Part shown: positions 13,274 to 32,702 of the stretch, one piece after another
Layout: the number at the start of each line of letters is the position of its first letter
Numbering within the stretch: the first letter of the stretch is position 1
Source of the DNA: an uncultured Bacteroidota bacterium
GTDB taxonomy: Bacteria > Bacteroidota > Bacteroidia > Flavobacteriales_F > PHOS-HE28
Direction: 5' to 3'
DNA length: 64,000 nucleotides
NCBI GenBank assembly: GCA_902826215.1
Contig: CADEDY010000003.1
Coordinates: 275,299 to 339,298, forward strand
The notes under the pieces: generated by a model
The model's database searches: none
Seen by the model: the letters and a program-made list of their open reading frames with translations, nothing else
Told to the model about the DNA's origin: nothing
Made by a program: the position numbers and the translations under genes

Positions 13274-14713
13274 ATGACCCGACCCGCTGCTCGTCTTGAA
13301 CGTATTTTGGGCGACCGCCGAACGTTTGTTACGTTGATCGTGCTGAACGTTCTGGTGGCAGTGGGCATCATGTGGGCATCGCGCGCCACCATTCTCTCCG
13401 ATACATGGTCCTACTTGGCACTGGCCGAAGGGATCCTGCATGGGGAGTACAGCATGTGGTGGCAGTTGGATCAGGATTACCCGGATACCTTCCGGACACC
13501 CGGATACCCGCTGTTGATCGCTTTCATGATCACCGTATTCGGTACATGGAAGTCCACTTTGATACTCCAGTTCATCCTTTATTGGTTGGCCCTCTACTTC
13601 ACCTTGCGTACCATGGCCCGGTTCGATGTCCGGCGATCTGTGCAGAGCCTTTTCCTGTTGCTGTTGCTGCCCATGGTGAATATGCCTTACTACATCTCGC
13701 AGCTCTATACCGAAGTGCCGGTGCTCGCTGCCATTGCAGGGGCGCTGTTTTTAGGAACAGGGCCGAATCGCCACAACTGGAAGACTTCCGTTGCCCTAGG
13801 ACTTCTTTTCGGCTTCATGTTCCAATGCAAGCCGGTGTTCTTGTTGTTCCCGCTGTTCTATGCCGCAGCTGCCCTTGCCTTCGATCGGCATCGCGTCGCA
13901 AGGTTGGGGAACGGACTCATGCTCGTCACATTCGCATGCACGGTGCTTCCCTTTGCCTTCTGGAATTTGCGCAATCACGGGGTATTCAAGGCCACCACCC
14001 TGGAAAGTGCCGGGAGCTACATGCACATCGGTTATTGGGGCGGGAAGATCCCCGGCTACACCGATCGTTTCTACCTGCACAACTTCATGGGCGACGAGGT
14101 GGTCCGATTCGTACCCGAGAACGAGATCCCGGGATACATCGCGGACTATGAGCAGGAGTGGACGGGGTTCAACGAGGTGCTGGATCCATTGCTCACCCCC
14201 AAGGACACCATCATGTGGGAAGCTGCTAAGACGCGCGAGCATGCGGTCGAACGCACGCACAACACGGCATATACGCTCAAGCGCGAAGAGCTCCTTTTCA
14301 GATCCACCATGGATCACTATTGGAGCGATCCGTGGTATGTCTTCAAGTACAAACTGTATTCGGCCATCCGCTTATGGGTGATCGGGGTGCAGAAGGGCGA
14401 ATTCCAGAAAGCGTCGACCGATGGGAAGGTGCAGATGATCTACGCCACCGTTTCGACCGCCGTTGTATTCCTCCTCGCCTTGATCGTTCTTCCTCTGGCG
14501 TACCGTCGTACGTTCCTCTCCTTGAGAACCACTTGGCCGTTCCTCGTCTACATCGTTTATTTCGGGGTGATGCACGTTCCATTCACCATACAAGCGCGGT
14601 ATACGACTTCGGTGCGCTTCGTGCTTTTTGCCCTAATGGCGCTGGCGATCGGTGGGCTCCTTTGGGGAAAGAGGGAAAAAGGATCGGACGGATCCATCAC
14701 TACGGATGCATGA
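13274..14713 (+). CDS. GT-C-type membrane glycosyltransferase (dolichyl-P-Man-PMT/ArnT-like), copy 1
   Basis: A 479-residue multipass protein with about 10-11 predicted helices. After the first helix comes an acidic loop (SDTWSYLALAEGI) in the position where GT-C enzymes carry their catalytic Asp. A long extracytoplasmic loop (about residues 235-370) contains NHGVFK and the IPGY segment, and the last helices carry HVPFTIQARYT. Such enzymes move sugars from polyprenyl-phosphate carriers to glycans, lipids or proteins at the periplasmic face. The same landmarks in the same order occur in the paralog at 31203-32702. Acceptor and donor are unknown. It is first in a five-gene + strand block. Confidence 0.72.
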   Translation: MTRPAARLERILGDRRTFVTLIVLNVLVAVGIMWASRATILSDTWSYLALAEGILHGEYSMWWQLDQDYPDTFRTPGYPLLIAFMITVFGTWKSTLILQFILYWLALYFTLRTMARFDVRRSVQSLFLLLLLPMVNMPYYISQLYTEVPVLAAIAGALFLGTGPNRHNWKTSVALGLLFGFMFQCKPVFLLFPLFYAAAALAFDRHRVARLGNGLMLVTFACTVLPFAFWNLRNHGVFKATTLESAGSYMHIGYWGGKIPGYTDRFYLHNFMGDEVVRFVPENEIPGYIADYEQEWTGFNEVLDPLLTPKDTIMWEAAKTREHAVERTHNTAYTLKREELLFRSTMDHYWSDPWYVFKYKLYSAIRLWVIGVQKGEFQKASTDGKVQMIYATVSTAVVFLLALIVLPLAYRRTFLSLRTTWPFLVYIVYFGVMHVPFTIQARYTTSVRFVLFALMALAIGGLLWGKREKGSDGSITTDA

Positions 14714-14828: not shown

Positions 14829-16316
14829 ATGATCCCCTTGTTCTACATCCACTACTTCGGGGACATGGAGATCGAGTATTGGGAGTATATGCTCTCTCTG
14901 CTCTATCTCCTTTTCTTCTACCTGTACTTCACTCGGCAGAAGAACATCCGGATAAAGGAAGCCCCGGAGTACGCCTATTACATCTGGGGTCTCATGGCGA
15001 AGATGCTCGGGGGCCTCGCATTCAGTCTGATCTACTTCTATTACTACCAAGGGGGGGATGGCCTGGTCTTTTTCCTAGGGGGAGTGGCCATGCGCAACCT
15101 TGCTCTGGTAGAGCCTTTGGAGTACCTCCGTCAAATGCTTGGCGACAACTCCATGAGGGCTTGGTCGACCTACACTTGGGAGACTGCAAAGCCGTTCCAG
15201 TACGTCTACTTCGATGACCGGACATTTGCCGTTATCCGCGTATCGAGCATTCTGGCGCTGCTGACCTTCAAGAGTTTCTTGATCAGTAACCTCATGATCG
15301 CAAGCCTCTCCTATTTCGGGATATGGGCTTGCTACCGGACCTATGTGAGCTATTTCCCGCAGATCTCGGGTAAGCTCGCCATCGGTTTCCTGTACATGCC
15401 ATCAACGATCTTCTGGGGCTCAGCCATTCTCAAGGATACCTTCACCTTCAGCTCCGTGTGTTGGTGGGTGCATCTGGTGGATGAGCTCTTCTTCAAGCGA
15501 AGGGTAACGGTGAGCAAATGGGTTGGCTTGGTCATCAGTGGGATAGTGATGATCACCATGAAGCCGTACATCTTCATGGCCCTCTTCCCCATGACCATCT
15601 TCTGGCTGTTGTATCTGCGTGTCGTTCGTTTGAAGAACGTCATGGTGAAGTTCGTTCTGGTACCGATCGCAGGTCTCCTCATTGTATCCGTCTCGCTCTT
15701 TGTTCTACTGAAGCTGGGCGACTCGCTGGACAAGTTCGCCTTGGAGGGGGCGTTGCAAACGATCCAGACCACGCAGGGCGATCTCGTGAATGCGAACGCG
15801 TATGGAAGCAATTCGTTCAACGTTGGAACTTTCGATGGAACGTGGTTCTCGGTTTTCGCCAAATTCCCCATTGCGACGAATGCGGCCTTGTTCAGACCCT
15901 ATCTATGGGAGGCCAATAACTTCGTGATGCTCATGAGCGGACTTGAGAATTTCTGGGTCCTGGCTCTCTCGTTGTATGTGCTTTATCGGGCAGGACCCGC
16001 GTTCATGCTCCGCTGTATCATCGGTGTTCCGATCCTGTTCATGTCCATGGCGTTCGCGATCTTCTTTGCATTCACGGTCGGGGTCACCACACCGAATTTC
16101 GGGGCCTTGGTCCGCTTCAAGATCCCGATGGTTCCTTTCTACATCGGGTCCATGTACATCATCTTGTACCTCTCTCAACTGAAGAAGGTGCAAACGATCC
16201 GAAGGAAGCGGTTCATTATCGCTGAAGTGCGCATGGGTACGGCGCACCTTCTGCCGAAGCGAGTTGCACCGAAGAAGAAACCGATCCGCCGGGCCATGGA
16301 GCCTCGACCCGCATGA
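14829..16316 (+). CDS. Polytopic membrane protein, possible polysaccharide polymerase
   Basis: A 495-residue protein with about 10-12 predicted helices and a basic C-terminal tail (KKKPIRR). An early extracytoplasmic YYYQGGDGLVFF segment and a central YMPSTIFWGSAILKD segment resemble landmarks of Wzy/EpsG-type polymerase-like proteins in exopolysaccharide loci, but I cannot assign a family with confidence. The start at 14829 is the first ATG; 14865 is an alternative. Its stop overlaps the start of the next GT4 gene (ATGA), which ties it to glycan assembly. The 115-bp gap before it contains nothing recognisable. Confidence 0.6.
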   Translation: MIPLFYIHYFGDMEIEYWEYMLSLLYLLFFYLYFTRQKNIRIKEAPEYAYYIWGLMAKMLGGLAFSLIYFYYYQGGDGLVFFLGGVAMRNLALVEPLEYLRQMLGDNSMRAWSTYTWETAKPFQYVYFDDRTFAVIRVSSILALLTFKSFLISNLMIASLSYFGIWACYRTYVSYFPQISGKLAIGFLYMPSTIFWGSAILKDTFTFSSVCWWVHLVDELFFKRRVTVSKWVGLVISGIVMITMKPYIFMALFPMTIFWLLYLRVVRLKNVMVKFVLVPIAGLLIVSVSLFVLLKLGDSLDKFALEGALQTIQTTQGDLVNANAYGSNSFNVGTFDGTWFSVFAKFPIATNAALFRPYLWEANNFVMLMSGLENFWVLALSLYVLYRAGPAFMLRCIIGVPILFMSMAFAIFFAFTVGVTTPNFGALVRFKIPMVPFYIGSMYIILYLSQLKKVQTIRRKRFIIAEVRMGTAHLLPKRVAPKKKPIRRAMEPRPA

Positions 16317-17569
16317 ACCTTGGTCAGAACGAGAGTCGATCTATAGGGGTGGGAAGATCATCCGATCAGCCACGGAACATTCTCGTCATCACGTACTGGA
16401 GTTTCGCGGATGCCTTGATCCAGACGTACACATTGCCCTACCTGCGCATCATGTTGCGTTGCCTTCCTGAAGGCAGCCATATTCATCTGGTCACCTTGGA
16501 GAAGTCCGATCCGAGGGCATGGGCGAAGATCGACGAAGCAGGTATCTCGTTGCACCGCTACCGCTACAGGCCGCTCGGTGCGAAAGGTGCAGGCATGATC
16601 CTCGGCCTGATCGCTCTGCTTTGGAAGGTCATGCGCGATCACAAGGTAGATACCATCCATGCATGGTGCACTCCTGCAGGTATGATCGGTCATTTGCTCG
16701 CCAAGCTCACCAGCAAACCTTTGGTGCTGGACAGTTTCGAACCCCACGCCGAAGCGATGGTGGAGAACGGTACTTGGCCTCGCAAAGGCTTGGCTTTCCG
16801 TGTGCTCTTCCATTTCGAGAAGAAGCAAGCACGTCAAGCACGGGCCGTCATCGCCGCTGCTTCGGGCATGCGGGCGTACGCACTAGAGAAGTATGGGGTG
16901 GATCTGCCCGCCATGCAGGTGAAACCAGCTTGTGTGGACCTCGAACGCTTTTCGTTGGACCGTGTCAAAGACCCGGTCGTCATGGAGCAATTGGGTCTAA
17001 AGGGCAAGTTGGTGGTGGTGTATGCGGGCAAGTTCGGCGGGATCTATTTGGACCAAGAGGTCTTCGACCTGCTCCGTGTGGCACGCGATCATTGGGGCGA
17101 GCGTTTCCATGTGCTGCTGCTCACGGGTCACTCGGTGGAAGAACTGACCCCCTTCATCGTGAAGGCCGGGTTGTCGCTTTCGCTGTTCACCATTACGAGT
17201 GTGCCACATTCCGAAGTGCCAGTATATATGGGGGTAGCGGACATGGCCCTGACTCCGGTCCGGTCGGTGCCGACCAAACGCAATTGCACGCCCATCAAGG
17301 ATGGTGAATACTGGGCGCTGGGCCTGCCGGTGATCATAACCCCGGGGATCTCCGACGACTCGGAAATCATCGAACGGAATGGTATCGGGGTGGTGCTCGA
17401 CGGGTTGGATAGGGACGCCTATCAGCGCGCAGTGGAACGCATGGATGCCTTGCTGAGCACTTCGGATCCTGCAGCGCTCAGGGCTCGGATACGTGCCATA
17501 GCCGAAAAGTATCGCCACTTTCGCATCGCAGAACAAGTCTATCGCAACGTGTATGGGACAACGGGATAA
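16313..17569 (+). CDS. Glycosyltransferase family 4 (GT-B fold)
   Basis: A 418-residue cytoplasmic or membrane-associated retaining glycosyltransferase. The N-terminal half carries the ILVITYWSF strand and DTIHAWCTPAGMIGHLLAK, a usual GT4 acceptor-domain segment. The C-terminal nucleotide-sugar domain has VVYAGKFGG and the late PIKDGEYWALGLPVIIT block, the counterpart of the PxKxxEYMAxGxPVV motif. The classical E-x7-E pair is not obvious. The first ~20 residues are polar and may not all be translated. It overlaps the polymerase-like gene by 4 bp and galE by 17 bp. Confidence 0.8.
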   Translation: MNLGQNESRSIGVGRSSDQPRNILVITYWSFADALIQTYTLPYLRIMLRCLPEGSHIHLVTLEKSDPRAWAKIDEAGISLHRYRYRPLGAKGAGMILGLIALLWKVMRDHKVDTIHAWCTPAGMIGHLLAKLTSKPLVLDSFEPHAEAMVENGTWPRKGLAFRVLFHFEKKQARQARAVIAAASGMRAYALEKYGVDLPAMQVKPACVDLERFSLDRVKDPVVMEQLGLKGKLVVVYAGKFGGIYLDQEVFDLLRVARDHWGERFHVLLLTGHSVEELTPFIVKAGLSLSLFTITSVPHSEVPVYMGVADMALTPVRSVPTKRNCTPIKDGEYWALGLPVIITPGISDDSEIIERNGIGVVLDGLDRDAYQRAVERMDALLSTSDPAALRARIRAIAEKYRHFRIAEQVYRNVYGTTG

Positions 17570-18584
17570 GGTATTGGTCACGGGCGGGGCCGGTTACATC
17601 GGTTCGCACACGATCATCGAGTTGATCGAGCGCATGGACGGCGACATCGTTTCGGTCGATAGTTTTGCCAATTCCGATCGGGCCACGTTCGACCGCATCG
17701 AACGATTGACAGGCAGGCGCGTCCCGAACCACGCGGTGGACCTGTGCGACGAGGCAGCGGTAGCAGAGGTTTTCGCCAAGGAGAAGGGTATCACAGGGGT
17801 CATCCATTTCGCCGCTTTCAAATCGGTACCCGAGTCGGTTGCGGATCCACACAAGTACTACCACAACAACATCGCCTCCTTGCTAACCGTGCTGCAAGGA
17901 TGCGTGAAGCACGGCATCCCGAACTTCATCTTCTCCTCTTCGTGTTCGGTCTATGGGAACATCGACCGATTGCCGGTCACGGAGAACACACCCTTGTCTC
18001 CCGCGGAATCCCCCTACGGCTATACGAAGCAGATCGGCGAGCGCATACTCGAGGACTATGCGAGGGTGCATCCCGGTATGAAGCTCATTGCCTTGCGGTA
18101 TTTCAATCCAGTTGGTGCACATCGGTCGGGCATGATCGGTGAAGCACCCATCAATCCGCCAAGCAGTCTTGTTCCGGTGATCACCCTTACGGCCATCGGA
18201 AAGCGGTACGGTATGGATGTGCATGGCAGTGATTACGCTACACGGGATGGATCGTGCATTCGCGACTACGTGCATGTTTCGGATATTGCTGCGGCCCATG
18301 TTGCGGCACTCGACTATACGCGCGGAGATCGGATGAAGGGCGCTCACGCCGTTTTCAACTTGGGCACCGGAGATGGAGTAAGTGTCTTGGAGGCCATTGC
18401 CGCCTTCGAGGAAGTGAGCGGTGTGAAGTTGAACTACCACATCGGTCCTCGACGGGCTGGAGATGTGGAGGCCATCTATTCGGATACCTCCCTCTCCGAG
18501 AAGGAATTGGGCTGGAAGGCGGAACGTGATCTGCACGAGATGATGCGTTCCGCTTGGGCTTGGGAACAGAACCGTTGGGCCTGA
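17553..18584 (+). CDS. galE: UDP-glucose 4-epimerase
   Basis: A 343-residue extended SDR that interconverts UDP-glucose and UDP-galactose, supplying UDP-Gal (and perhaps UDP-GalNAc) for the glycan. GalE landmarks are all present: VTGGAGYIGSHT at 9-20, SSSCSVYG at 128-135, catalytic YGYTK (Tyr155...Lys159; the YxxxK frame also fits Tyr157-xx), RYFNPVGAHRSGMIGE, and DGSCIRDYVHVSDIA. Length is standard. Its first 17 bp overlap the end of the GT4 gene. Confidence 0.93.
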   Translation: MGQRDKVLVTGGAGYIGSHTIIELIERMDGDIVSVDSFANSDRATFDRIERLTGRRVPNHAVDLCDEAAVAEVFAKEKGITGVIHFAAFKSVPESVADPHKYYHNNIASLLTVLQGCVKHGIPNFIFSSSCSVYGNIDRLPVTENTPLSPAESPYGYTKQIGERILEDYARVHPGMKLIALRYFNPVGAHRSGMIGEAPINPPSSLVPVITLTAIGKRYGMDVHGSDYATRDGSCIRDYVHVSDIAAAHVAALDYTRGDRMKGAHAVFNLGTGDGVSVLEAIAAFEEVSGVKLNYHIGPRRAGDVEAIYSDTSLSEKELGWKAERDLHEMMRSAWAWEQNRWA

Positions 18585-19324: not shown

Positions 19325-20194
19325 CTACCGACCCTTGGGTCGAAGTTTACGCATCAGGATGGACGGATCCTTGGCAACTGCTCGAAGCAAGTAGGGCAAC
19401 GCCTTCACCGGAGTTCCTGCATTCTTCCAGTAACTGCCGCCGATCGACCATTCCGCGTTGGAGAGCACCTCCTTTCGCAAGTCGGGATCATCCAACAGAC
19501 CGAGATCCATGGCCTTTGCCATCAGCCTACGATGATCCGCAGCGTACAGATCCACATTGCGGCTCATGCTTTTCGGTAACACCCTGTAACGGTTCAAGGC
19601 ATTGGGCAGGTGGTGATACGTGTGCTCCTTGGCCATCACCAAGGCGAAATGCTGATCAGCGGCATTGGAAAGTTCAGGGTCGAATCGGAAGCCCGTAGCA
19701 AAGCAGGATCGGTGCAGCAAAGCGTTGCTGCAGGACGCTGGAACAGCTGGGTCGATGCCCAGAAGAATGGTTCGGACCACATCGCCATCGGTGCCGCGCA
19801 TGATGCTTCCCGAAGGCTGCATTCCGGCGTCACACAGAAGCAGATCACCGTAGACCCAACGAGCATCCGTTCGCTGCAATGCAGCCAGTTTTTCCGCAAG
19901 GTTCGTTGGTTCCATGGCGTCGTCCGCATCAAGGAAACCGATGTGCTCCCCGCGTGCACTTTCCAGTCCGACATTGCGTGCAACACTGACTCCTTGGTTC
20001 GGGCGATCGATGACCAGCAAGCGTTCATCGCCGATCGACCGTGCAATGGAAGCCGTGTCGTCCGTGGATCCATCATTCACCAGGATCACCTCGAGATCGG
20101 CCACGGTCTGTGCAAGTACCGATCGAATGGCCTGTTCCACGAATGGCGCGGCGTTGAAGGCCGGGATCACGATGGAGACCAAAGGCGTGCTCAT
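19325..20194 (-). CDS. Glycosyltransferase family 2 (GT-A fold)
   Basis: A 289-residue inverting glycosyltransferase. The start at 20194 is used because it precedes the canonical VSIVIPAFNAAPFVEQAI opening and overlaps the upstream stop by 4 bp. NDGSTDDTASI and GEHIGFLDADDAMEP give the nucleotide- and metal-binding DxD region. There are no membrane segments. A perfect palindrome (CGACCCTTGGGTCG, 19329-19342) sits over the last codons. It is last in the seven-gene minus-strand block that begins with FkbM. Confidence 0.88.
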   Translation of the reverse strand: MSTPLVSIVIPAFNAAPFVEQAIRSVLAQTVADLEVILVNDGSTDDTASIARSIGDERLLVIDRPNQGVSVARNVGLESARGEHIGFLDADDAMEPTNLAEKLAALQRTDARWVYGDLLLCDAGMQPSGSIMRGTDGDVVRTILLGIDPAVPASCSNALLHRSCFATGFRFDPELSNAADQHFALVMAKEHTYHHLPNALNRYRVLPKSMSRNVDLYAADHRRLMAKAMDLGLLDDPDLRKEVLSNAEWSIGGSYWKNAGTPVKALPYLLRAVAKDPSILMRKLRPKGR

Positions 20195-21321
20195 TTCGCA
20201 GAACCTAGTGCCTTTCGGTACAATTCCATGGTCCCGTTCCACATCACATCGAACGGATACATGCGGAGGGCGGTCTCCCTTCCAGCTTCACCAACAGCTT
20301 TTGCGTCCAAAGCCAGGAGACGTTCCAATCCCAGTGCAAGAGCTTCGCCTGTGGGTGCATCCACAAGAACCCCGTTCACATCGGTCTCGATCGCGTCCTG
20401 CGCCGCACCGGTCGACGTGCTCACCACGGGCACACCGTTCATCATCGCTTCGGCATAGACCAAGCCGAACGGCTCGAGGACCGCAGCATGCATGTAGACA
20501 TCGAGCACACCATAGAACGAGGCCATTTCCGCTCGGTCGATCCAGCCTGTCAGGAGGATGTGCTTTTCCATCCCTGCCGAGCGGATGTCATCCTTGATCT
20601 CTTCTTCCAAAGGCCCATTCCCGCAAAGAAGGAAAATGGCCTTCGGGTTCTTTTCTACGAAGGATCTCGCCGCATCGATGATATGGCGGTGACCTTTCCA
20701 TGCTACGAAGCGCGCCACGTTCCCCACGACCGGTTCGCGATCATAAAGGCCGAAGCGAGCGCGCGATCGGTCCATCACAACCTTGTCTTTCTTCGTGAAG
20801 AGATCAGGTGGAATTCCATTGTGCACCAGATGGATCTTATGCGGCGGAGCGCCTTCCTTTTCGATCAAGAACCGGCGACATTCCCCGGAAATGGCGATGA
20901 TATGCGTGGAAAGGCGCGTAACCAACCGGTCGAGGAACATCCATTTCCGAGCGTACATCCAATGGTAGCCGGTGTCCTGTTTGGTGGTAACACGCACTTT
21001 GATACGCGCCATCCAAGCCGCGATCGTTCCGGGAACCGCATCGTCGAATAGATGCGTGTGGACCACGTCGGGGCGCAATCGTCGGATGTGACGCCACATT
21101 TGAGGAAGGGCGAGCAACATATCGCGTTTGCGGTGTGCATCATCGTAGCGGATCCAGATGCAGGTATGACCCAAGGCCTCCATCTCGTCGATCATGCTCG
21201 GCCGGGTAGGGAAGAGGATCACGAAGGAGTATCGCAGGTCCGTAACGCCCTTCGCGCGCTGTACGAACCAGGTCAGGTACGGCACATGGTCGTTGTTGGC
21301 GAAGGTGTGAAGAACATGCAT
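20191..21321 (-). CDS. Glycosyltransferase family 4 (GT-B fold)
   Basis: A 376-residue retaining glycosyltransferase. The N-terminal domain carries RPDVVHTHLFDDAVPG, the central linker has IHLVHNGIPPDLF, and the C-terminal domain has VGNVARFVAWKGH, FLLCGNGPLEEEI and the E-x7-E motif in LEPFGLVYAEAMMNGVPVV. It overlaps the GT2 gene by 4 bp, and an 81-bp gap separates it from the acyltransferase upstream. A full-length, standard enzyme; sugar specificity cannot be read. Confidence 0.9.
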   Translation of the reverse strand: MHVLHTFANNDHVPYLTWFVQRAKGVTDLRYSFVILFPTRPSMIDEMEALGHTCIWIRYDDAHRKRDMLLALPQMWRHIRRLRPDVVHTHLFDDAVPGTIAAWMARIKVRVTTKQDTGYHWMYARKWMFLDRLVTRLSTHIIAISGECRRFLIEKEGAPPHKIHLVHNGIPPDLFTKKDKVVMDRSRARFGLYDREPVVGNVARFVAWKGHRHIIDAARSFVEKNPKAIFLLCGNGPLEEEIKDDIRSAGMEKHILLTGWIDRAEMASFYGVLDVYMHAAVLEPFGLVYAEAMMNGVPVVSTSTGAAQDAIETDVNGVLVDAPTGEALALGLERLLALDAKAVGEAGRETALRMYPFDVMWNGTMELYRKALGSAK

Positions 21322-21402: not shown

Positions 21403-22443
21403 CTACTTCTTCCTTCCGATGGTCTTGGAAAGTCGATGGAAGGGTAGTTCCACCAGCCGATGGAAGACCCAAGCGGCCAGTAGGCTTATGCCCATGTACA
21501 CGACCAGCAGCAAAAGTTTACCGGCAACCGTTTGATGAAGGTCCGTGATCCTTTTGATCCCGCTTTCTGCCACGAATCCGACCGGGATGTGGGTGATGTA
21601 CAAACTATAGGAAATGGTTCCCAGCCAAGTAAGAACACGCAGCTGCGCATTCGGTGCGCGCAGAATGAGCAGGCCGGTGGCAAGCGCGACAAGCATCTGT
21701 AGGGTGTCGTCATGCAGGTATCCCACAAGCATAACGCACCCTGTGAGCAACAGAAGCGTCATGTCGTTCAGCATCTGCTCCCTCCGGTAATAGACAAGAA
21801 TGCCGGGTACGAAGAACATCGCGTGTTCGCAGAGCATGGGAAGCGAGAATGATCGCATCCCAATCAGCAATAGCACGAAGCCGATGGCTGTTACTTGGCG
21901 ATGGATCCGGAACAAGGGAAAGACCAATGCGATGAGAATGTAGAACTCGAATTCGATGGTCAAGGTCCAATACGCGAAATTGAACCAAGGCGTATCCCAG
22001 TACATTGCAGTGAACGTGAGGTTCGTCAGGATGGTGGGCACATCGATGCTGTAGATCCCTGACCCAGCGATGGGAGTGCCCTTGTACCAAAGGCTGATGA
22101 AGTGGAACACCACCATGATGAGCGCGGAGACGTACGCTGGCGGAGCGATCCGCACGTAGCGCTTGGCCATGAACGTGCCGATGTCGCGGTAAGTGTACTG
22201 CATGCGATGCAGCGCCAAGGGAATGACGAAACCCGAGATCACGAAGAACACCTGAACACCCAATTTGCCGAGTACAAGGGATCCTGCCAGTGGGTTGTTG
22301 GCGATGGTGGGAAGAATGGCCGCCCCGAAATGGAACAGGACCACGCCCAGAGCAGCGATGCCGCGCAAAGGGTCCAGGATCGCGGTTCGATCCTGCAACG
22401 GACGGTTAGGGTTTGTCAGAAAGGACGGATCAGCTGGCAACAT
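21403..22443 (-). CDS. Acyltransferase 3 family membrane protein (OafA/NodX-like O-acyltransferase)
   Basis: A 346-residue protein with about 10 membrane helices. The family signature DPLRGIAALGVVLFHFGA near the N terminus contains the catalytic His of the RxxA...H motif. GVQVFFVISGFVIP in helix 2-3 is also characteristic. These enzymes add acetyl or other acyl groups to sugars during envelope polysaccharide synthesis. The ATG at 22443 is chosen because longer starts would run into the upstream GT4 gene. A basic tail (SKTIGRKK) ends it. Confidence 0.88.
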   Translation of the reverse strand: MLPADPSFLTNPNRPLQDRTAILDPLRGIAALGVVLFHFGAAILPTIANNPLAGSLVLGKLGVQVFFVISGFVIPLALHRMQYTYRDIGTFMAKRYVRIAPPAYVSALIMVVFHFISLWYKGTPIAGSGIYSIDVPTILTNLTFTAMYWDTPWFNFAYWTLTIEFEFYILIALVFPLFRIHRQVTAIGFVLLLIGMRSFSLPMLCEHAMFFVPGILVYYRREQMLNDMTLLLLTGCVMLVGYLHDDTLQMLVALATGLLILRAPNAQLRVLTWLGTISYSLYITHIPVGFVAESGIKRITDLHQTVAGKLLLLVVYMGISLLAAWVFHRLVELPFHRLSKTIGRKK

Positions 22444-22465
22444 GGCTGTAGATAGCAATGGCCTT

Positions 22466-23722
22466 TCAACGCAGAACACCCTTCCAGGTTCGACCATTTG
22501 AGCCCGACGCAAGGTCGTAAACGGCACCAATACCTACTGCAACAGCTTTAGCGCCGTAACGAGCGCGCGCCTCTAGTGCTATGTTCCCTCGATCCCAGCG
22601 GTCAGGTTGGTCCACGCATTCCATCAACGCCTTGGAAAGGGCGACAGGGTCGCTCGGTGGTACGAGGATCCCATTGGTGCCATTGATCAGTTCCGGGACC
22701 CCATTCACTGCCATCGAGATCACGGGCGTTCCACAGCAAAGGCTTTCCAGCACCACACATGGAAGATTGTCAGACTTTGTCGGTAGAACGAAGAGATGCG
22801 CCTTTTGCATGAATTCGGCCAGCGCCGCTTTCGGAAGCAAGCCCGGAAAACGGATGTTCATGGCCGGTAACTCGGTGCGGCACCTTTCCTGGATGCGTGA
22901 AAGGTCCGGACCGCCGCCGATCCAATCGATATGGCAAAGATCCTTATAGGTCTTGGGCAAAAGAGACAAGGCCCTAATGAAGACATCGTGATCCTTGGGG
23001 GGGCGCCACTGGGCCGCAAGTACCAAGCGGAACGGCGGCGGAAGAGGCGGCGAACCGAAGGAAAAGACCGCTGCAGCGATGTTCGGCACAATGTGCATGC
23101 GTTCCCGTTCAACACCGTAGTCCTCGTGAAGCACGTTGGCCAGATCGTTGGAAACAGGCATTACCCGGCGGATGATGGGCCGGCCCAACCACGCACGAAT
23201 TCGGTTGCGTTCGGCGACTTGTTCCTTCGGCGGAAGCGCCCGGATCCCGAGGTGGTAATAGGAATTGTGTTCAGTAAGCACAACTGGAAGTCCGAGTTCT
23301 TCGGCGGTAGGAATGACCTCCTCGGTCACATCCGTGCGCACATGGATATGTACCAAGTGGAACGGATCGGCATGGTGCGACCGAAGGATGGAACGGCGAA
23401 GTGCGAACCGGGCCAGTCGCCTGTCGAACCCGAACCGGCGCACCGGTGTGCGTATCGTGATGCGATGGACCCGGACCCCATCTTCCAGTGCGGTAACCGT
23501 GCGGATTGATGGCATCCACGCCGGGCATTTCTCCACGACCAAATGGATCACCTCCACCTCGTTCTTCATGGCGATGGCCTGCACATGTTCCTTGATGAAG
23601 ACACCTGCCACATCGTTTGCGCCGGGCCACCATCCGGCAACACACAACACGCGCCTTCGGCCTCGACCTGCTCTGCGCTCCATGCTCTGTGGATCGGAGG
23701 TGCTCACCATCCGCGTGATCAC
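22466..23722 (-). CDS. Glycosyltransferase family 4 (GT-B fold)
   Basis: A 418-residue retaining glycosyltransferase. It shows VLCVAGWWPGANDVAGVFIKEHV, the usual N-terminal strand and first helix of WcaL/Pel-type GT4 enzymes. DPFHLVHIHVRTDVTEEV and VLTEHNSYYHLG follow, then a C-terminal FVLPTKSDNLPCVVLESLCCGTPVI block that corresponds to the E-x7-E region. The start overlaps the flippase stop (ATGA), so the two are translationally coupled. Confidence 0.88.
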   Translation of the reverse strand: MITRMVSTSDPQSMERRAGRGRRRVLCVAGWWPGANDVAGVFIKEHVQAIAMKNEVEVIHLVVEKCPAWMPSIRTVTALEDGVRVHRITIRTPVRRFGFDRRLARFALRRSILRSHHADPFHLVHIHVRTDVTEEVIPTAEELGLPVVLTEHNSYYHLGIRALPPKEQVAERNRIRAWLGRPIIRRVMPVSNDLANVLHEDYGVERERMHIVPNIAAAVFSFGSPPLPPPFRLVLAAQWRPPKDHDVFIRALSLLPKTYKDLCHIDWIGGGPDLSRIQERCRTELPAMNIRFPGLLPKAALAEFMQKAHLFVLPTKSDNLPCVVLESLCCGTPVISMAVNGVPELINGTNGILVPPSDPVALSKALMECVDQPDRWDRGNIALEARARYGAKAVAVGIGAVYDLASGSNGRTWKGVLR

Positions 23723-25050
23723 TGTTCGGTTCTTCGGTTGATCATACGGCGCACCTCACGCACGTCACCTGCATGTACAAAGAACGTATCGAACACGGTG
23801 ATCCCCATCTTCACGTGGATCACCCGAATCATCACCAGTAGGATGACCAAATAAGCGATGGACGATGCCAAAGCAGCACCGATGATTCCCATTTGCGGGA
23901 TCAAAAGAAGGTCGAGAAGGATAGTGGTAAAGGCGCCCACCATAGTGCCGAGCAAGTTGTAGTGCTGAAGGCCACCATGCACCGAAAGCTGTGCCAATAC
24001 CTTGAATGCACTGCTGAACAGAATTCCCGGAAGCAGGAAGTACAAGGCCACTACCGAGCCTTGGAACACCTCGCCGAAAAGCAGGGGAACCACCCAGTGC
24101 GCCGTTAGCGCCATGCCAACAGCGGCAACGAGTACGGCACTGAAACTGATGCGCGCGACCGATTTGAATCGAGCGATCATCTCGTCCTTTACTTGGCCGA
24201 ACAAGAAGGGTTGTGCCACTCGGCTGAAAGGTTCGGGGATCTGGAAAAGCAACTGGCCGAGACCGACGGCGACCGCATACAAGCCTAGTTGCGCCGGGCC
24301 ATGATACACGTCGACCACCCAGATGTCGAAGCGGTAATTGATCAGGTTGATCAGGTTGCTCATATGCCCTACCAAAGTGAAAGCGATCACTGGTCGCATC
24401 AGTCTCCAATCGGTCAGTGGTCGTGGGATCAGACCCACATGCCGCATGTAATACCAGCTCCAAGCCAAGGAAACCAGGATCATGCTTGCTCCGGTAACGG
24501 CCAACACTGCGGTGAACCGATCGTGTTCCGGAACACTATCCCTGAAAAGATAGAGAAGGATGAAACCGACCGCACTCGAACCCGCTGTGAAGAGGCTCAT
24601 CACGTTGATGGCAGCAAAATTCTTGAGGCCCAGTAGAACACCGGATATGGCGCTGTTGAGCATGCTCAATATGACCGCAAGTAGGATGAACGCCCAGAAG
24701 TACCATTGGGTGCGTCCTTCGGGCATGAATATCCGCATGAGCACATCGGAATAGGATATTCCCCAAAGGATCACCGGGATCAATGCCAGGTTCACCAGTA
24801 GCAGCGTCATCGAAGTGCCGATGGCAGCCTTATGATCGGTATTGGACCGAGCTGTGAAGTAGGTGATGCCGAAACCGATGTTCAGCCCCATCACCATGGA
24901 AAGCAGCGCGGTGAGATTCGTGATCAAGGCATACTCTCCGCGCCCCTCATCTCCAAGCAAGCGCGTCATCGCTGTGCTGGCAACGAAGTACATCAGCAGG
25001 GTGGGTGCCTGAGTGAGGAACGTGTAGAATATGCCTCGCTTCATGGACAT
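23719..25050 (-). CDS. Wzx-type polysaccharide flippase (MOP superfamily)
   Basis: A 443-residue protein with about 12-14 predicted helices arranged as in the polysaccharide-specific transporter branch of the MOP superfamily. It has the N-terminal MTRLLGDEGRGEYALI segment, the RFDIWVVDVYHGPAQLGLYAVA loop, typical of Wzx proteins, and a late GIIGAALASSIAYLVI helix. It would move undecaprenyl-PP-linked oligosaccharide across the inner membrane. It sits in the middle of the seven-gene glycosyltransferase block and overlaps the next gene by 4 bp. Confidence 0.88.
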   Translation of the reverse strand: MSMKRGIFYTFLTQAPTLLMYFVASTAMTRLLGDEGRGEYALITNLTALLSMVMGLNIGFGITYFTARSNTDHKAAIGTSMTLLLVNLALIPVILWGISYSDVLMRIFMPEGRTQWYFWAFILLAVILSMLNSAISGVLLGLKNFAAINVMSLFTAGSSAVGFILLYLFRDSVPEHDRFTAVLAVTGASMILVSLAWSWYYMRHVGLIPRPLTDWRLMRPVIAFTLVGHMSNLINLINYRFDIWVVDVYHGPAQLGLYAVAVGLGQLLFQIPEPFSRVAQPFLFGQVKDEMIARFKSVARISFSAVLVAAVGMALTAHWVVPLLFGEVFQGSVVALYFLLPGILFSSAFKVLAQLSVHGGLQHYNLLGTMVGAFTTILLDLLLIPQMGIIGAALASSIAYLVILLVMIRVIHVKMGITVFDTFFVHAGDVREVRRMINRRTEQ

Positions 25051-25127: not shown

Positions 25128-27428
25128 TCATTGGAAGCGGAACGGTAAGCGTTCCAATAGTGTCCGGAAGTGTTGCTGTTCGGCGTATGCGAGGCGGGCC
25201 GCGAGAGCGTCCGGGGGATCGCCCTCCAGCAGCCAACGATCAAATAGCCGAAGTGCCTCGTTGGGGTCGTCGCTCATGTACACCAGTTCCCGATGGTCCG
25301 TGTATTCGGAGAACCAACTGCAGAAAATGGGTTTGCCCTGCGCCAGGAATTGAACGACCTTCTGGCTGGAGATCCGGTTCGCTGGATGGTCGGGTTGCAT
25401 GTACAGGAAGCCGAATCCGGCCTCTTTGATCAGTGCAGCCAAGCGAGTATATGGCACAGCGCCAACGAAATGTACGTGCGGAAGATCCGGATCCTTGATC
25501 AATCGTTCGCCGATCGGCGAGGTCACACGCGTTGGCCCTACGACCACCCAGTCGATCTCCGGGTGGTTCCTGAACATCGTTTCCCACAATGCGAAATCGT
25601 GACGATCGTTTATGTTGCCGATGTACAGCCCGTATCCCGGCGATGCAGGTCGATCTTCCGCACGGATCGGATCGGGTACGATATCCTCATCGTCCAGGCC
25701 ATGTGGAAGGTGATGCACCGATCCGTTCAGTTCTTGGAAGCGCGGCATCAGGTCTCGAGCGATGCAGAACACGTGATCGCTTCGCTCGGCCAATAGTCGC
25801 TCTCCTCGCAGCCGGAACGCGTGGTCATCGGCGCAGTGGTATACCGAGATCTCCGGTGCCAAGGCATCCAGGTCGGCCAAACGGCTCGGGTCGAAGGTCC
25901 AGAAGAGCGGGGCATCCCAATCGTTCCGTTCCAAGTATTTGCGGATACGACGAGCGATGATGCGATCGTTGAAGGGACCGAGCCTCCCGCCGAGCAAGGG
26001 AATGGCGTTGTTGTAGGAAAGAATGGTTATGCCTTGGGCGGTCGTGCGCTCCCGAATGCGCATGCGCAAGGCGTGCGACGGTCTCCATGGATCCGGGGGG
26101 TCAACGAAGTAGACCTTCCGCTTGGCGGTCAGCGCCAAAGCGTATCGATGCTTGCTGTACCGAGGGCCGTTCCATTCCTCGTTGGAGACGATGAGGATCG
26201 GGCAATTCCAAGGCACGAGGGGCCTTTGGTCGCTATCAGCATCGCGATGGGTCCGGACTTTTTCGGTCGGATCAGGCGCATTGGACAGAGCGTCCAATTG
26301 CTTCAGGATCCGTTCGGTGAGCCTAGCATAACTCACTGCATCCAAATAAGCTTGAACACGGGTTCCATCCACCGCATTCACATTTGCAAGAACCTGGGCC
26401 ACCAGTTCCAAGAAGTGCCCCTCGTCGTGGGCCTTATAGTGCCCTATTCCCTCCAATTCAGGGATGTAGCTATTGTTCGTGGAGACCACAGGCCGAAGTT
26501 GAGCGAGGTAGGTCAAGGTCTTCAGGGGCGTTCTCCCTGCTGCGTTGGGCGTGCTGCGTGAGGGCTCCAGATCGTATGTAAGGAGGCCGATACGCGAGGC
26601 ATGGATCAGGTCCTTCAGGGCATCAGGGTGCAGCACACCAGCATACACCACGTTGGGCATTGCGAACAGCTCGTGCCGGAGCGCGTGCAATTGAGGGTCC
26701 AAGGCGAACCACTTGCCTGCCACGACGATCCGCAGATGAGGCAATGAATTCGCCAAGCGCAGTAACAGCCTATAGTTCACATACTTGTTCACGCCAGTGG
26801 CGAGAACGGCGAAGGTCCCCCACAATTCCCTGTAACCGGCCACAGCATCAGGGTTGTGCATACGGTCTGCGGGCCGCACACCGTGCGGCACCAACATGCA
26901 ATTGCGATTGAAATGACCGTAATAGTTGAGGTACCACGGATTGATCGCCACGACAAGGTCCACGCGCCTTGCGAAGGCAGCATCGTTGGGAAGGTTCTGA
27001 TAGGGGTCCACGACATGGTAGATCGCTCGCGTATCGGGTATCCTCAGAAGCTTGTCGATCAATGGGAGGGTAGGGTGGAAGCTCCAAAGAAGTACTTCAC
27101 CCTCGGGCATCAAACGACGAAGCTTCCGAGCGTTCAACCAGCCTACAAGTCCACCCAAACGTCCGCCGAAGGGTCGCAGCGGGAGGTTGTTACGCATATG
27201 GATAACGCGCACTCCTTCTGGCGTGGTGCGCACCTGAACGCCGATGGAGAACAGGTCAAGGAAACGCCAACGCTCCGGCAGGCCCACGAAATAGACGGTA
27301 TGGCTCTTGGCCAGTTCGGCTGCGTAGTGGTGCTTGGAGTACCACATGTCCGCCCAAGGCTCCAAGGAGAATAGGAAGATGGTACGTGGGGTGGACCTCA
27401 TCGAAAGTCTGCCGGAAGCGGACCGCAC
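25128..27428 (-). CDS. Double-domain glycosyltransferase (two homologous GT-B units, TuaH-like)
   Basis: A 766-residue protein made of two related glycosyltransferase-like halves. In half one (about 15-380), IFLFSLEPW is followed by WYSKHHYAAELAK (Tyr30), VYFVG, a PEGVRVIHMRNNLPL segment and GGRLGG. In half two (about 410-766) the order is the same: ILIVSNEEW, RYSKHRYALAL (Tyr424), VYFVDPP, AQGITILSYNNAIPL and GGRLGP. The corresponding motifs are 394 residues apart. Each half then continues to a C-terminal domain with LPHGLDD or VPHGVRP, so each may be a full GT-B enzyme. Single-unit relatives occur in teichuronic acid and exopolysaccharide loci. An alternative start is 27401. Whether both halves are active is unknown. 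Confidence 0.78.
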   Translation of the reverse strand: MRSASGRLSMRSTPRTIFLFSLEPWADMWYSKHHYAAELAKSHTVYFVGLPERWRFLDLFSIGVQVRTTPEGVRVIHMRNNLPLRPFGGRLGGLVGWLNARKLRRLMPEGEVLLWSFHPTLPLIDKLLRIPDTRAIYHVVDPYQNLPNDAAFARRVDLVVAINPWYLNYYGHFNRNCMLVPHGVRPADRMHNPDAVAGYRELWGTFAVLATGVNKYVNYRLLLRLANSLPHLRIVVAGKWFALDPQLHALRHELFAMPNVVYAGVLHPDALKDLIHASRIGLLTYDLEPSRSTPNAAGRTPLKTLTYLAQLRPVVSTNNSYIPELEGIGHYKAHDEGHFLELVAQVLANVNAVDGTRVQAYLDAVSYARLTERILKQLDALSNAPDPTEKVRTHRDADSDQRPLVPWNCPILIVSNEEWNGPRYSKHRYALALTAKRKVYFVDPPDPWRPSHALRMRIRERTTAQGITILSYNNAIPLLGGRLGPFNDRIIARRIRKYLERNDWDAPLFWTFDPSRLADLDALAPEISVYHCADDHAFRLRGERLLAERSDHVFCIARDLMPRFQELNGSVHHLPHGLDDEDIVPDPIRAEDRPASPGYGLYIGNINDRHDFALWETMFRNHPEIDWVVVGPTRVTSPIGERLIKDPDLPHVHFVGAVPYTRLAALIKEAGFGFLYMQPDHPANRISSQKVVQFLAQGKPIFCSWFSEYTDHRELVYMSDDPNEALRLFDRWLLEGDPPDALAARLAYAEQQHFRTLLERLPFRFQ

Positions 27429-27540: not shown

Positions 27541-28425
27541 TCATAGGCCGATGGAGGTGGCGATCTCTGGCCGACAGATCAGGAAATTGAAGTGAGCACT
27601 TCGCGAAAGTTCGGGCACCTGACGTGGCGGCCAGGTCACCTCATCGATGTTGAAGTACAGGTAGTCGAGTCCGCCGATCAGGTCCATCACTTGTTGGGCC
27701 ACAGTGTCGTTGAGGATCTCGATGAGCATGGTCGGTCGGTCCTTCCGGATTAGGTCGATGAAGCCACGAAGCACCGCAGCCTCATGGGTTTCCACATCGA
27801 TCTTCAAAAGGTCAACCTCGGCGGAACCGATCCGCGCAAGAAGGTCCATCACGGTGACGCACGGTACCTCGACCGGACGCAGCTGGGTACTGGCCTTGTT
27901 CCATTCCGACTCCAGCGAAACGGAGAGAACGTGCTCACTCTCGGGCAGGTCGTACAACGTGGCCGTACCGGTGGAATCGCTCACTGCGGCATGCACGGCA
28001 TGGATACTGCCTGGATTCAGCGCGAAGTTGGCCTGCATCTTCGAAAATACGCGCTGCACGGGTTCTACTGCTGCCACCGTGGCCTCTGGCTGAACGGTCT
28101 TTGCGATCAAGGCATACACCCCGGTATTAGCGCCGATGTCCAGGATCGTATGAGACCGTCGACAGAGCAAGACCCATAAACGTGCGGACACTTTCTCCCA
28201 ACCCTCCAATCCGCGCCAGAATAGCTCGTTCTCGATCACGTATCCGTGGTGGACCATTTTGAAGGATCCGCCCGGAGTGATAGGAACCGTGATCACCCCC
28301 TTGAAGTGCAAGTGCTTGTGGATCCGCTCAGGCACTGGCACGAGTGTGCGCACCAGCGTGAAAAGCGGTTGTTTGAACGGCAATGCGTCATACAGTCGTT
28401 TGGCACCTTTTCGTAGAACGGACAT
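27541..28425 (-). CDS. FkbM family SAM-dependent methyltransferase
   Basis: A 294-residue protein. ILDIGANTGVYALIA is SAM motif I and VAAVEPVQRVFSKMQANFALN is motif II. VDLLKIDVETHEAAVLRGF is the FkbM signature with its DxE pair. FkbM enzymes O-methylate sugars or polyketides. The ATG at 28425 gives the normal family length; a 24-residue upstream extension is unlikely. It is the first gene of the minus-strand block and has a 139-bp divergent gap to the + strand methyltransferase. Confidence 0.88.
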   Translation of the reverse strand: MSVLRKGAKRLYDALPFKQPLFTLVRTLVPVPERIHKHLHFKGVITVPITPGGSFKMVHHGYVIENELFWRGLEGWEKVSARLWVLLCRRSHTILDIGANTGVYALIAKTVQPEATVAAVEPVQRVFSKMQANFALNPGSIHAVHAAVSDSTGTATLYDLPESEHVLSVSLESEWNKASTQLRPVEVPCVTVMDLLARIGSAEVDLLKIDVETHEAAVLRGFIDLIRKDRPTMLIEILNDTVAQQVMDLIGGLDYLYFNIDEVTWPPRQVPELSRSAHFNFLICRPEIATSIGL

Positions 28426-28564
28426 CGGAATGGAACGGTCGGTCAAAGAACGTACACCTGCGCTCACCGTTGCCTTGGAACCCGATGAAAACGTCAACGA
28501 TTCAATGGTGGCATCGGGAACCGGAATTACGGTATCCTTGCAGCCGCGTTAGGCCTGTCCTTCC

Positions 28565-30449: not shown

Positions 30450-31182
30450 CACGTCGGATACCGCGTTCAATACCGAGCAGTTCGATGCCATCTACCCGAC
30501 TGGCGTGGAACGGCATTATTGGAACGTGTGCCGCAACGCCGTGATAGCAAAGTACCTGCGCAACGAAGCACCCAAGGGAGCGATCCTCGAGATCGGCTGC
30601 GGAAAGGGCTTGGTGGTGGCGGCCATGTTGGAGCTTGGCATGGATATCCAAGGCGTTGAGCTCGCGGATGTGCCGGTCGTAGCCGAGGCGAAGGATCATG
30701 TCATCGTCGGGAAGGATGTGTTCGATCTGGATCCGAAGCGATTCACCGCCGTGCGAACTGTCATGCTCTTGGACGTGATCGAACACCTGGAGGATCCCGT
30801 GTCCTTCATTCGTCGGATACGCAGCTTCCTTCCGGCGGTCATTTGCATCCTATGCACGGTCCCGGCACGGCAAGAATTGTTCAGTGATCACGATCGCTTC
30901 AATCATCACTTTCGGCGCTACGATCGCGACATGCTTCGTGCGCACATGGACCCTGAAGGCGCACGGGGCTGGTCAGCTTCCTACTTCTTCCATGCGCTAT
31001 ATCCAGCCGCATTGATCCAGCTGCAGCTCAAAGGCGACAGCGGTCGACGATTCACCGTCCCGACCAGCTTCGTGGAGCGCATCGTTCATCGCACATTGGG
31101 CCTTGGCTTTCGATTGGAACATTCCTTTTTGCCAAGCTCTTGGCGCGGCACATCCATCATCGCCGTCGCGATGGATCGTTGA
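30439..31182 (+). CDS. Class I SAM-dependent methyltransferase
   Basis: A 247-residue protein with motif I ILEIGCGKGLVVAAML and the acceptor-side MLLDVIEHLEDPVSFI. This is the Methyltransf_11/23 type. A FNHHFRRYDRDML segment follows, often seen in methyltransferases of glycan clusters. Its first 11 bp overlap the GtrB-like gene, so translation is coupled. It probably methylates a sugar on the polyprenyl carrier or the final glycan; this is inferred from position. Confidence 0.8.
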   Translation: MVSSTSDTAFNTEQFDAIYPTGVERHYWNVCRNAVIAKYLRNEAPKGAILEIGCGKGLVVAAMLELGMDIQGVELADVPVVAEAKDHVIVGKDVFDLDPKRFTAVRTVMLLDVIEHLEDPVSFIRRIRSFLPAVICILCTVPARQELFSDHDRFNHHFRRYDRDMLRAHMDPEGARGWSASYFFHALYPAALIQLQLKGDSGRRFTVPTSFVERIVHRTLGLGFRLEHSFLPSSWRGTSIIAVAMDR

Positions 31183-31202
31183 GCAAGGTTTCCAGGTCCA
31201 CC

Positions 31203-32702
31203 ATGACAACATCCACCATTGGAACATTTCTTCAGAGAGTGAAGGCACGGTTGAACACCGTGAAGGCGCGCAATACACTGCTTGGTGCACATCTCGTGCT
31301 GCTCATCGGCGCCTTCTTCCTTGGGCACACCGAAGCACCTGATCAAGCCACCTACTACGCCTTGGCCGATGGCTTGGCGCAAGGCTCCTATTCGGTCTGG
31401 AACGGCATTCTGGACCCTTCACCGGTGGATCTGTTGCGCACCCATGGGTACCCGGTGTTCCTGATGCTGGTGCGGTCCATTTCCAAGAACCCCACCTTGC
31501 TTTTCGCTTGCCAGTCGATCCTGCACGTGCTCACCATCCTGCTTCTGTTGCGCTTCATCGGATCGGGACCTGAAGGACACCTGCGGCAGTCGTTCTTCCT
31601 GCTTCTCCTTCTTCCTCAGTTCCAGTTGGTATACTATGCTCATCAGGTCTTTCCGGAGACACTGATGGCGACAATGGGTATTTCGTTCGTCCTGCTCATC
31701 ACCGACCCGATCCGAAGTATCCTTAGGACTGTTCTTCTGGGCTTGATCGCTGCAGCGATCTTCTGGGTTCGGCCCGTCATGTTGTTCTTTCCGTTGTTCA
31801 TCCTCCTGCTCGATCTGGTGTTCGCTGCCGGGTCACTGAGGTGGCCCCTGTTGCGTCGAAATGCAGCCATGATGACGATCGCACTGGTGTTTGGACCCTT
31901 GGCCTTCGGATGGTGGAACCTCAAAGCGCACGGCGTGTTCAAGCCCATTCCGCTGAGCGGCAGTTCGGTGAACAGCAATTTGGGCATTTGGCAACTGCGA
32001 TTGCCGGGCTATGGCACCATGCACTATTTCCAGTACAACTACTTCGGTCGTGAAGTACTGCCTTTAGTGAGCGATGATGAAGCGGCTGCCTTCTATACGG
32101 CTTACGAGGACCAGTGGGAGCGTATTGAAACAGAGGCCGCCAGGTCCATGACGGAGGTGGATGTGCGCAACATGCCCGTCATGGCGGAACATCGGACGGA
32201 ATTGTACGCCACCCGGTCACCGGCGTATACCATGGCTTTGGATGACGTCATCGGAAAGGAGAACAAGCAGATGATCCAGGACGAGCCGCTCTACTACCTC
32301 GGCACGCGGTTGTATGCAGCGGTGCGGCTGTGGGTCACCAACATCAACCTGCCGATGGAGAAGGTGGTGTACGAGCCAACACCCGGTGTTCGACCGAAGG
32401 TCGGGAGACCGAACGGCCTATCGGGTTGGGCTTCCGCTCTGGTCCCCTTCCTGATCACGTTCTTCACGTTCGGGATCGGAATTCCCTTCCTTCTCGGATC
32501 GGTGATCGGCTCCTTGCGACGACGCACCGGTCGATGGGCACCATGGCGATACGCGCTGTACATGATCGGCTACGTCTGGGTGGTCCATGTACCGATGTCG
32601 ATCCAATCGCGGTATACGGTGCCGGTACACGCTTTGGCGATCTCTTGCATCGCGCTCTTGCTGGCCGGGGCGATGAGCAGGAGAGTCGAACGAGCTGTTT
32701 GA
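31203..32702 (+). CDS. GT-C-type membrane glycosyltransferase, copy 2
   Basis: A 499-residue multipass protein paralogous to the one at 13274-14713. Shared landmarks in the same order are the acidic loop after helix 1 (DQATYYALADGL), HGVFK followed by an LPGY/IPGY loop, an AYEDQWE helix against DYEQEWT, LYAAVRLWV against LYSAIRLWV, and HVPMSIQSRYT near the C terminus. The ATG at 31203 is used; the upstream alternative adds a strongly basic non-hydrophobic leader. It probably transfers the sugar loaded by the GtrB-like enzyme two genes upstream. Confidence 0.72.
   Translation: MTTSTIGTFLQRVKARLNTVKARNTLLGAHLVLLIGAFFLGHTEAPDQATYYALADGLAQGSYSVWNGILDPSPVDLLRTHGYPVFLMLVRSISKNPTLLFACQSILHVLTILLLLRFIGSGPEGHLRQSFFLLLLLPQFQLVYYAHQVFPETLMATMGISFVLLITDPIRSILRTVLLGLIAAAIFWVRPVMLFFPLFILLLDLVFAAGSLRWPLLRRNAAMMTIALVFGPLAFGWWNLKAHGVFKPIPLSGSSVNSNLGIWQLRLPGYGTMHYFQYNYFGREVLPLVSDDEAAAFYTAYEDQWERIETEAARSMTEVDVRNMPVMAEHRTELYATRSPAYTMALDDVIGKENKQMIQDEPLYYLGTRLYAAVRLWVTNINLPMEKVVYEPTPGVRPKVGRPNGLSGWASALVPFLITFFTFGIGIPFLLGSVIGSLRRRTGRWAPWRYALYMIGYVWVVHVPMSIQSRYTVPVHALAISCIALLLAGAMSRRVERAV

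Follow-up and report, generated by a model that had tools for sequence, protein, structure and literature searches.

A predicted tandem glycosyltransferase with two GumK/TuaH-like units, joined in either order within one Bacteroidota genus

We analysed a 64,000-nucleotide stretch of Bacteroidota DNA (hereafter the window) and found in it a gene that encodes two glycosyltransferase (GT) units, A and B, in a single chain. With a probability of roughly 0.6, we read the product as a bifunctional GT made from two old paralogous GumK/TuaH-like GT-B enzymes, which would add two sugars to a lipid-linked repeat. By its predicted gene content, the locus is a polysaccharide cluster, with the following features (positions in the window):

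25128–27428, minus strand: fused glycosyltransferase gene A-B, 766 aa from a GTG start (757 aa from the ATG at residue 10)
26274–27386, minus strand: unit A, residues about 15–385, predicted GT-B fold, with the GumK-Lys307-like K303
26205–26273, minus strand: linker, residues about 386–408
25131–26204, minus strand: unit B, residues 409–766, predicted GT-B fold, with the SSQKVVQ motif and K690
23719–25050, minus strand: Wzx-like flippase, family F4, next gene downstream (PF01943 Polysacc_synt, E = 1.5e-10)
22466–23722, minus strand: GT4 glycosyltransferase, family F8
21403–22530, minus strand: acyltransferase, family F22 (PF01757)
20191–21321, minus strand: GT4 glycosyltransferase, family F3, the family joined to A in genome G076
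19325–20242, minus strand: GT2 glycosyltransferase, family F1
27541–28497, minus strand: FkbM-type methyltransferase, family F11, upstream of the fused gene
17553–18584, plus strand: UDP-glucose 4-epimerase GalE, family F16, at the far cluster end (TIGR01179, 368.6 bits against a cut-off of 262.3)

Much of this neighbourhood is shared within the genus. Where the fetched contig was long enough, genes of the F4 flippase, F3 and F1 families are found again downstream of A-B fusions, of reversed fusions (B'-A, where B' denotes the sister group of B), and of A or B' genes standing alone; the exceptions are G003, which has other genes there, and G043, which has F3 only. Two membrane-like proteins at the cluster ends of the window (14829–16316 and 31140–32702, both plus strand), with 5 and 7 hydrophobic segments and no Pfam or NCBIfam match, are candidate Wzy-type polymerases or ligases. 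Another membrane-like protein, of 479 aa (13274–14713, plus strand), lacks a Pfam match and weakly matches the LA_3751/LA_3752 putative glycosyltransferase family in NCBIfam (31 of 200 bits).

A preliminary description of the fused protein had proposed two homologous GT units on the strength of motifs recurring in the same order, and these motifs lie where it put them: YSKHHYA at residue 30 and YSKHRYA at residue 424, a spacing of 394, together with VYFVG and VYFVDPP and a GGRLG in each half. The likeness extends over nearly the whole of both units. BLASTP of one half against the other aligned residues 17–374 with residues 411–761 (84.7 bits, E = 1e-22, 26% identity, 42% positives), and the Smith-Waterman score of A against B was 229, compared with a mean of 37.2 (s.d. 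5.3, maximum 66) over 1000 shuffles of the second half. Within one chain, A and B are 22–25% identical in the eight intact fused proteins, the window's included. The match between them is thus, as far as the alignments indicate, an old one at the protein level. The linker is variable among the fused relatives, save for a short Pro-terminated motif just ahead of B. At the other end of the 766-aa frame, an in-frame ATG lies at residue 10, downstream of the GTG start.

Predicted structures agree with this division. Models of A and B were each built from a four-row alignment of sequences from the window and from L031, a Flavobacteriales metagenome bin with an A-B fusion; A was modelled with a pLDDT of 82.6 and a pTM of 0.83, and B with middling confidence (pLDDT 76.9, pTM 0.68). 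The top structural match of the A model was 6kih (Z 29.3, 347 aligned, rmsd 3.6), and its match to GumK (2hy7) had a Z of 27.8 (332 aligned, rmsd 4.1). For the B model, the top match was 3fro (Z 20.1, 330 aligned, rmsd 7.1), GumK followed with a Z of 19.4 (311 aligned, rmsd 4.6), and the top Foldseek match was 3cuy, a GumK mutant. GT4 enzymes are also among the structural matches of both halves. Each model consists of two Rossmann-like domains and matches GT-B enzymes of known structure along most of its length, so that A and B share a predicted GT-B fold, a likeness seen through common PDB chains. Since A and B match the same GT-B structures, and the BLASTP match runs their full length, the proposal of two homologous GT units in one chain stands; by sequence and models the chain holds two complete GT modules, as KpsC and WbdA do.

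The whole protein scored 28.1 bits with the Pfam family PF13692 (Glyco_trans_1_4; gathering score 27), A alone scored 21.2 bits, and B alone was not listed. Its best NCBIfam match was TuaH (NF047676), at 44.4 bits for the whole protein, 17.3 for A and 31.9 for B, all short of the equivalog cut-off of 550 bits; 34 of the 36 collected units match this family. TuaH belongs to the Bacillus teichuronic acid cluster, and its model of 384 positions corresponds to a single unit, unlike the two-unit fused protein. Searches of PDB sequences by phmmer, with the whole protein and with half A, returned no match. GT4 enzymes carry an EX7E motif with a second Glu. In the unit alignment, the place of this Glu is taken by T306 in A and Q693 in B, so that it is absent from both halves; in the A profile, the second Glu of 2f9f falls on a Thr-type position.

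The units were also compared with GumK, the xanthan glucuronosyltransferase of family GT70. A profile of the units finds GumK at E = 5e-8, and the comparison of nucleotide-binding residues suggested in the preliminary description places a lysine on GumK Lys307 in both halves (K303 in A, K690 in B), a residue invariant in all 36 units. According to the part of the GumK study drawn on here, Lys307 touches the donor and distinguishes GumK from GT4 and GT94 enzymes (PMC12768416). The B/B' profile alone finds GumK at E = 7e-6, and the A-only profile did not reach it at E 0.1. The GumK segment SSMKLLQ corresponds to SSQKVVQ in B and TPLKTLT in A; at the places of GumK Ser304/Ser305 and Tyr292, B has S687/S688 but Met677, and A has Tyr285 and no Ser pair. 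GumK shares the predicted GT-B fold and Lys307 with the fused protein, and the SSxKxxQ donor motif with B, but is a single unit, and its Ser pair is missing from A. The profile alignment starts at GumK residue 174, so the catalytic Asp157 falls outside it; by position, the invariant D141/D534 is a candidate for its equivalent. In four of the eight intact fused proteins, A and B are 29–31% identical in their acceptor-side domains and 16–20% identical in their donor-side domains, a pattern consistent with lipid-linked acceptors that are alike and donor sugars that differ. The genome has two UDP-sugar dehydrogenase genes above cut-off, and since all 14 control genomes match too, an acidic donor gains no support from them.

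We then examined how the two units are arranged across the genus, where 32 of 45 genomes matched at E 1e-4. The A-B fusion is present in ten (G000, G001, G003, G011, G012, G030, G036, G038, G039, and G040), and the fused orthologues are 52–61% identical to the window protein. This recurrence led us to reject an assembly artefact or a missed stop: eight of the ten are intact on one contig, and in G003 and G030 contig ends cut the fusion, yet the remaining piece keeps A joined to B in frame. The reverse fusion, B'-A, occurs in two genomes (G027 and G035; G035 has it at two loci, one of them truncated where the contig ends), A lacking B in three (G013, G022, and G043), and B' alone in seven (G002, G004, G006, G017, G031, G032, and G034). 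Ten genomes have diverged units only, a class to which G014, G015, G020, and G028 were assigned on search scores alone, and 13 have none. In G043, the A gene breaks off where the linker would lie; it closes with PWN, which matches the PWN at the junction of G003, and collinear remnants of B follow downstream in two frames (L046 4211–4122, 4126–3974, and 3965–3933, minus strand; weak scores, with E about 4e-6 to 0.3 per piece). Together with the sisterhood of the A units of G043 and G003 in the 48-row tree described below, these remnants indicate that an A-only gene can be the leftover of an A-B fusion.

Two further arrangements were considered and discarded. A three-unit protein in G003, whose A begins near residue 343 of its frame, was rejected, as the 340 residues before A failed to match the unit model and look non-coding by eye. 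A tblastn match in G035 appeared to continue past A into a B beyond a TGA, and here the reading frame after the stop is unlike B, and a different GT gene comes next.

Beyond the genus, matches were found in 42 of 395 genomes of a class sample and in 106 of 395 genomes of a phylum sample, and in neither sample did we see two such units in one protein outside the genus. Each kind occurs as a complete, free-standing protein in relatives that carry a single unit, and the split homologues that the preliminary description had suggested looking for thus exist. A has also found a third partner: in G076, from another family, a 744-aa protein (L062:5484–7715, minus strand) joins an A-like first half to an F3-type GT. 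Its second half shares 40–51% identity with 18 of the 20 F3 members, F3 being the family that shares a cluster with A and B units in the genus. In G391, again from another family (L089:5842–7997, minus strand), separate genes in the order B'→A overlap by ATGA, and this pair is the unfused counterpart of the reversed fusion.

We built a genus tree of 48 rows, from which four short pieces were excluded (the second unit of L050, two pieces of L056, and L069). In this tree, A forms one clade (100/100), B forms another (100/100), and B' is sister to B (97/96). A 64-row tree, which adds 20 units from 18 genomes of other families and excludes the same four pieces as well as G064 and three F15 rows, recovered an A clade of 25 rows (SH-aLRT 99) and a B/B' clade of 30 rows (96). 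Free-standing units from outside the genus fall within each clade, so A and B/B' parted before they were fused. The halves had earlier been taken for an old duplication; the paralogy is indeed old, but the separate clades with free-standing units rule out an in-gene tandem duplication as the source of both halves, and the units are joined in both orders. Forcing the A units of A-B proteins into one clade was rejected (p-AU 0.0009), and the same constraint with G043, whose B is decayed, added to the group was not (p-AU 0.188). The A-B and B'-A fusions may be independent in origin, as these trees read.

The preliminary description had also allowed for one half being non-catalytic, and a pseudo-enzyme that serves as scaffold or acceptor-binding partner has one point in its favour: with the second Glu of EX7E missing from both halves, GT4 motifs cannot indicate catalysis, and the GumK catalytic residue was not located. 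The conservation of the two units nevertheless disfavours it. Nineteen residues, including K303/K690 and D141/D534, are invariant in 33 complete units (13 A, 10 B, and 10 B', the A units being 13 of 15 after exclusion of two cut by contig ends). Over the 28 pairs of the eight fused proteins, mean identity is 59.0% for A and 60.2% for B. From three species pairs, we estimated a dN/dS of 0.066 for A and 0.060 for B in G012/G036, and A/B values of 0.113/0.088 and 0.124/0.080 in the two pairs that include G001, which show large synonymous differences. By these estimates, A and B are under similar purifying selection. With equal conservation, dN/dS of about 0.06–0.12 in both halves, and the invariant residues kept, the donor-site lysine among them, we hold a pseudo-enzyme half to be distinctly improbable.

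Fused GT domains need not act consecutively. Both halves could be active, but at positions that are not adjacent or in different reactions of the cluster, with the fusion only fixing expression and location. The survival of A and of B' alone in some species speaks for such an arrangement, as does the fusion of A to F3 in G076, which means that the partner is not fixed; A and B partners may indeed act at non-adjacent positions. However, the two families have been fused in either order, and the B'-A genes of G391 are coupled; both favour a close functional link, and we hold action at separate positions or in separate reactions to be unlikely. Another view would have the halves alternate as a chain-extending polymerase, producing, independently of Wzy, a polymer with a disaccharide repeat. 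Polymerases and chain builders with two modules are known (WbdA, PMC11231755; KpsC, PMC10148158), but the Wzx-type flippase next door and the several cluster GTs fit a Wzx-dependent repeat assembled by many GTs, and no ABC-transporter genes were noticed in a general annotation scan of the neighbouring genes; we give this view very little credence.

Bifunctional tandem GTs are already known, KpsC and WbdA being examples in the parts of their reports used here. KpsC, the dual β-Kdo transferase of the E. coli group 2 capsule, likewise has two GT modules per chain, each forming a different linkage on a lipid-linked glycan; its modules are retaining Kdo transferases that alternate, and a swapped module order is not noted in those parts of the report (PMC10148158). 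WbdA of Klebsiella O3 and O5 is also a single chain, in which each linkage has its own GT module, two or three in all (PMC11231755). As described there, it is a mannosyl polymerase in an ABC-transporter system, whereas the fused protein has a Wzx-like neighbour and belongs to a different GT family. Searches of the open-access literature found no paper on two-GT4-domain, tandem or dual-domain, or fused-glycosyltransferase or domain-order proteins of this kind; nor, by titles and the beginnings of abstracts, one on this family among GumK-like, GT70 or TuaH glycosyltransferases in Bacteroidetes. Within the literature searched, the pairing of these families, the existence of both fusion orders, and A's third partner are new.

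If the fused protein is a bifunctional GT, as we favour, unit A would place one sugar on the growing lipid-linked repeat and B the neighbouring one, in either order of action, with each unit presumably drawing on its own nucleotide-sugar pocket. Tethering A to B would hold the two steps stoichiometric and pass the intermediate along. Because the fusion occurs in both orders, it probably acts as a tether and not via one fixed interface. The genomes in which A (three) or B' (seven) stands alone indicate that neither depends on the other, and the separate, fused and order-swapped occurrence of both kinds suggests that the two act together in building a surface sugar chain. As a tentative extension, which we think more doubtful than probable, A may be a hub enzyme fused to varied partners in varied orders (A-B, B'-A, and A-F3), and the repeat unit may be encoded in the domain make-up of the locus: tethered GTs would form a natural assembly line, open to rearrangement, in which order along the chain is irrelevant and both units take acidic-sugar donors via the GumK-like lysine.

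Fusion of enzymes that act together is evidence for shared function. The same two families, joined both ways, separate or single, within a single genus and at loci of the same type, form a natural series on tethering in surface-polysaccharide synthesis, and gene structure could predict adjacent sugar pairs. GumK/TuaH-like enzymes, few of which are characterised, are now extended to widespread Bacteroidota loci.

Several minor observations concern individual loci. In G032 (L058:6568–8833, plus strand) and G210 (L090:5593–7754, plus strand), two B'-type units are encoded by neighbouring tandem genes. The B'-type gene of G006 (L056:6726–7850, minus strand) is broken by an internal stop codon. The start of A in G391 is unusually B'-like, perhaps through gene conversion. 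In family f84 of the phylum sample (G553, G604, G534, and G684), single units lie in open frames of 618–656 aa, with some 250 extra residues.
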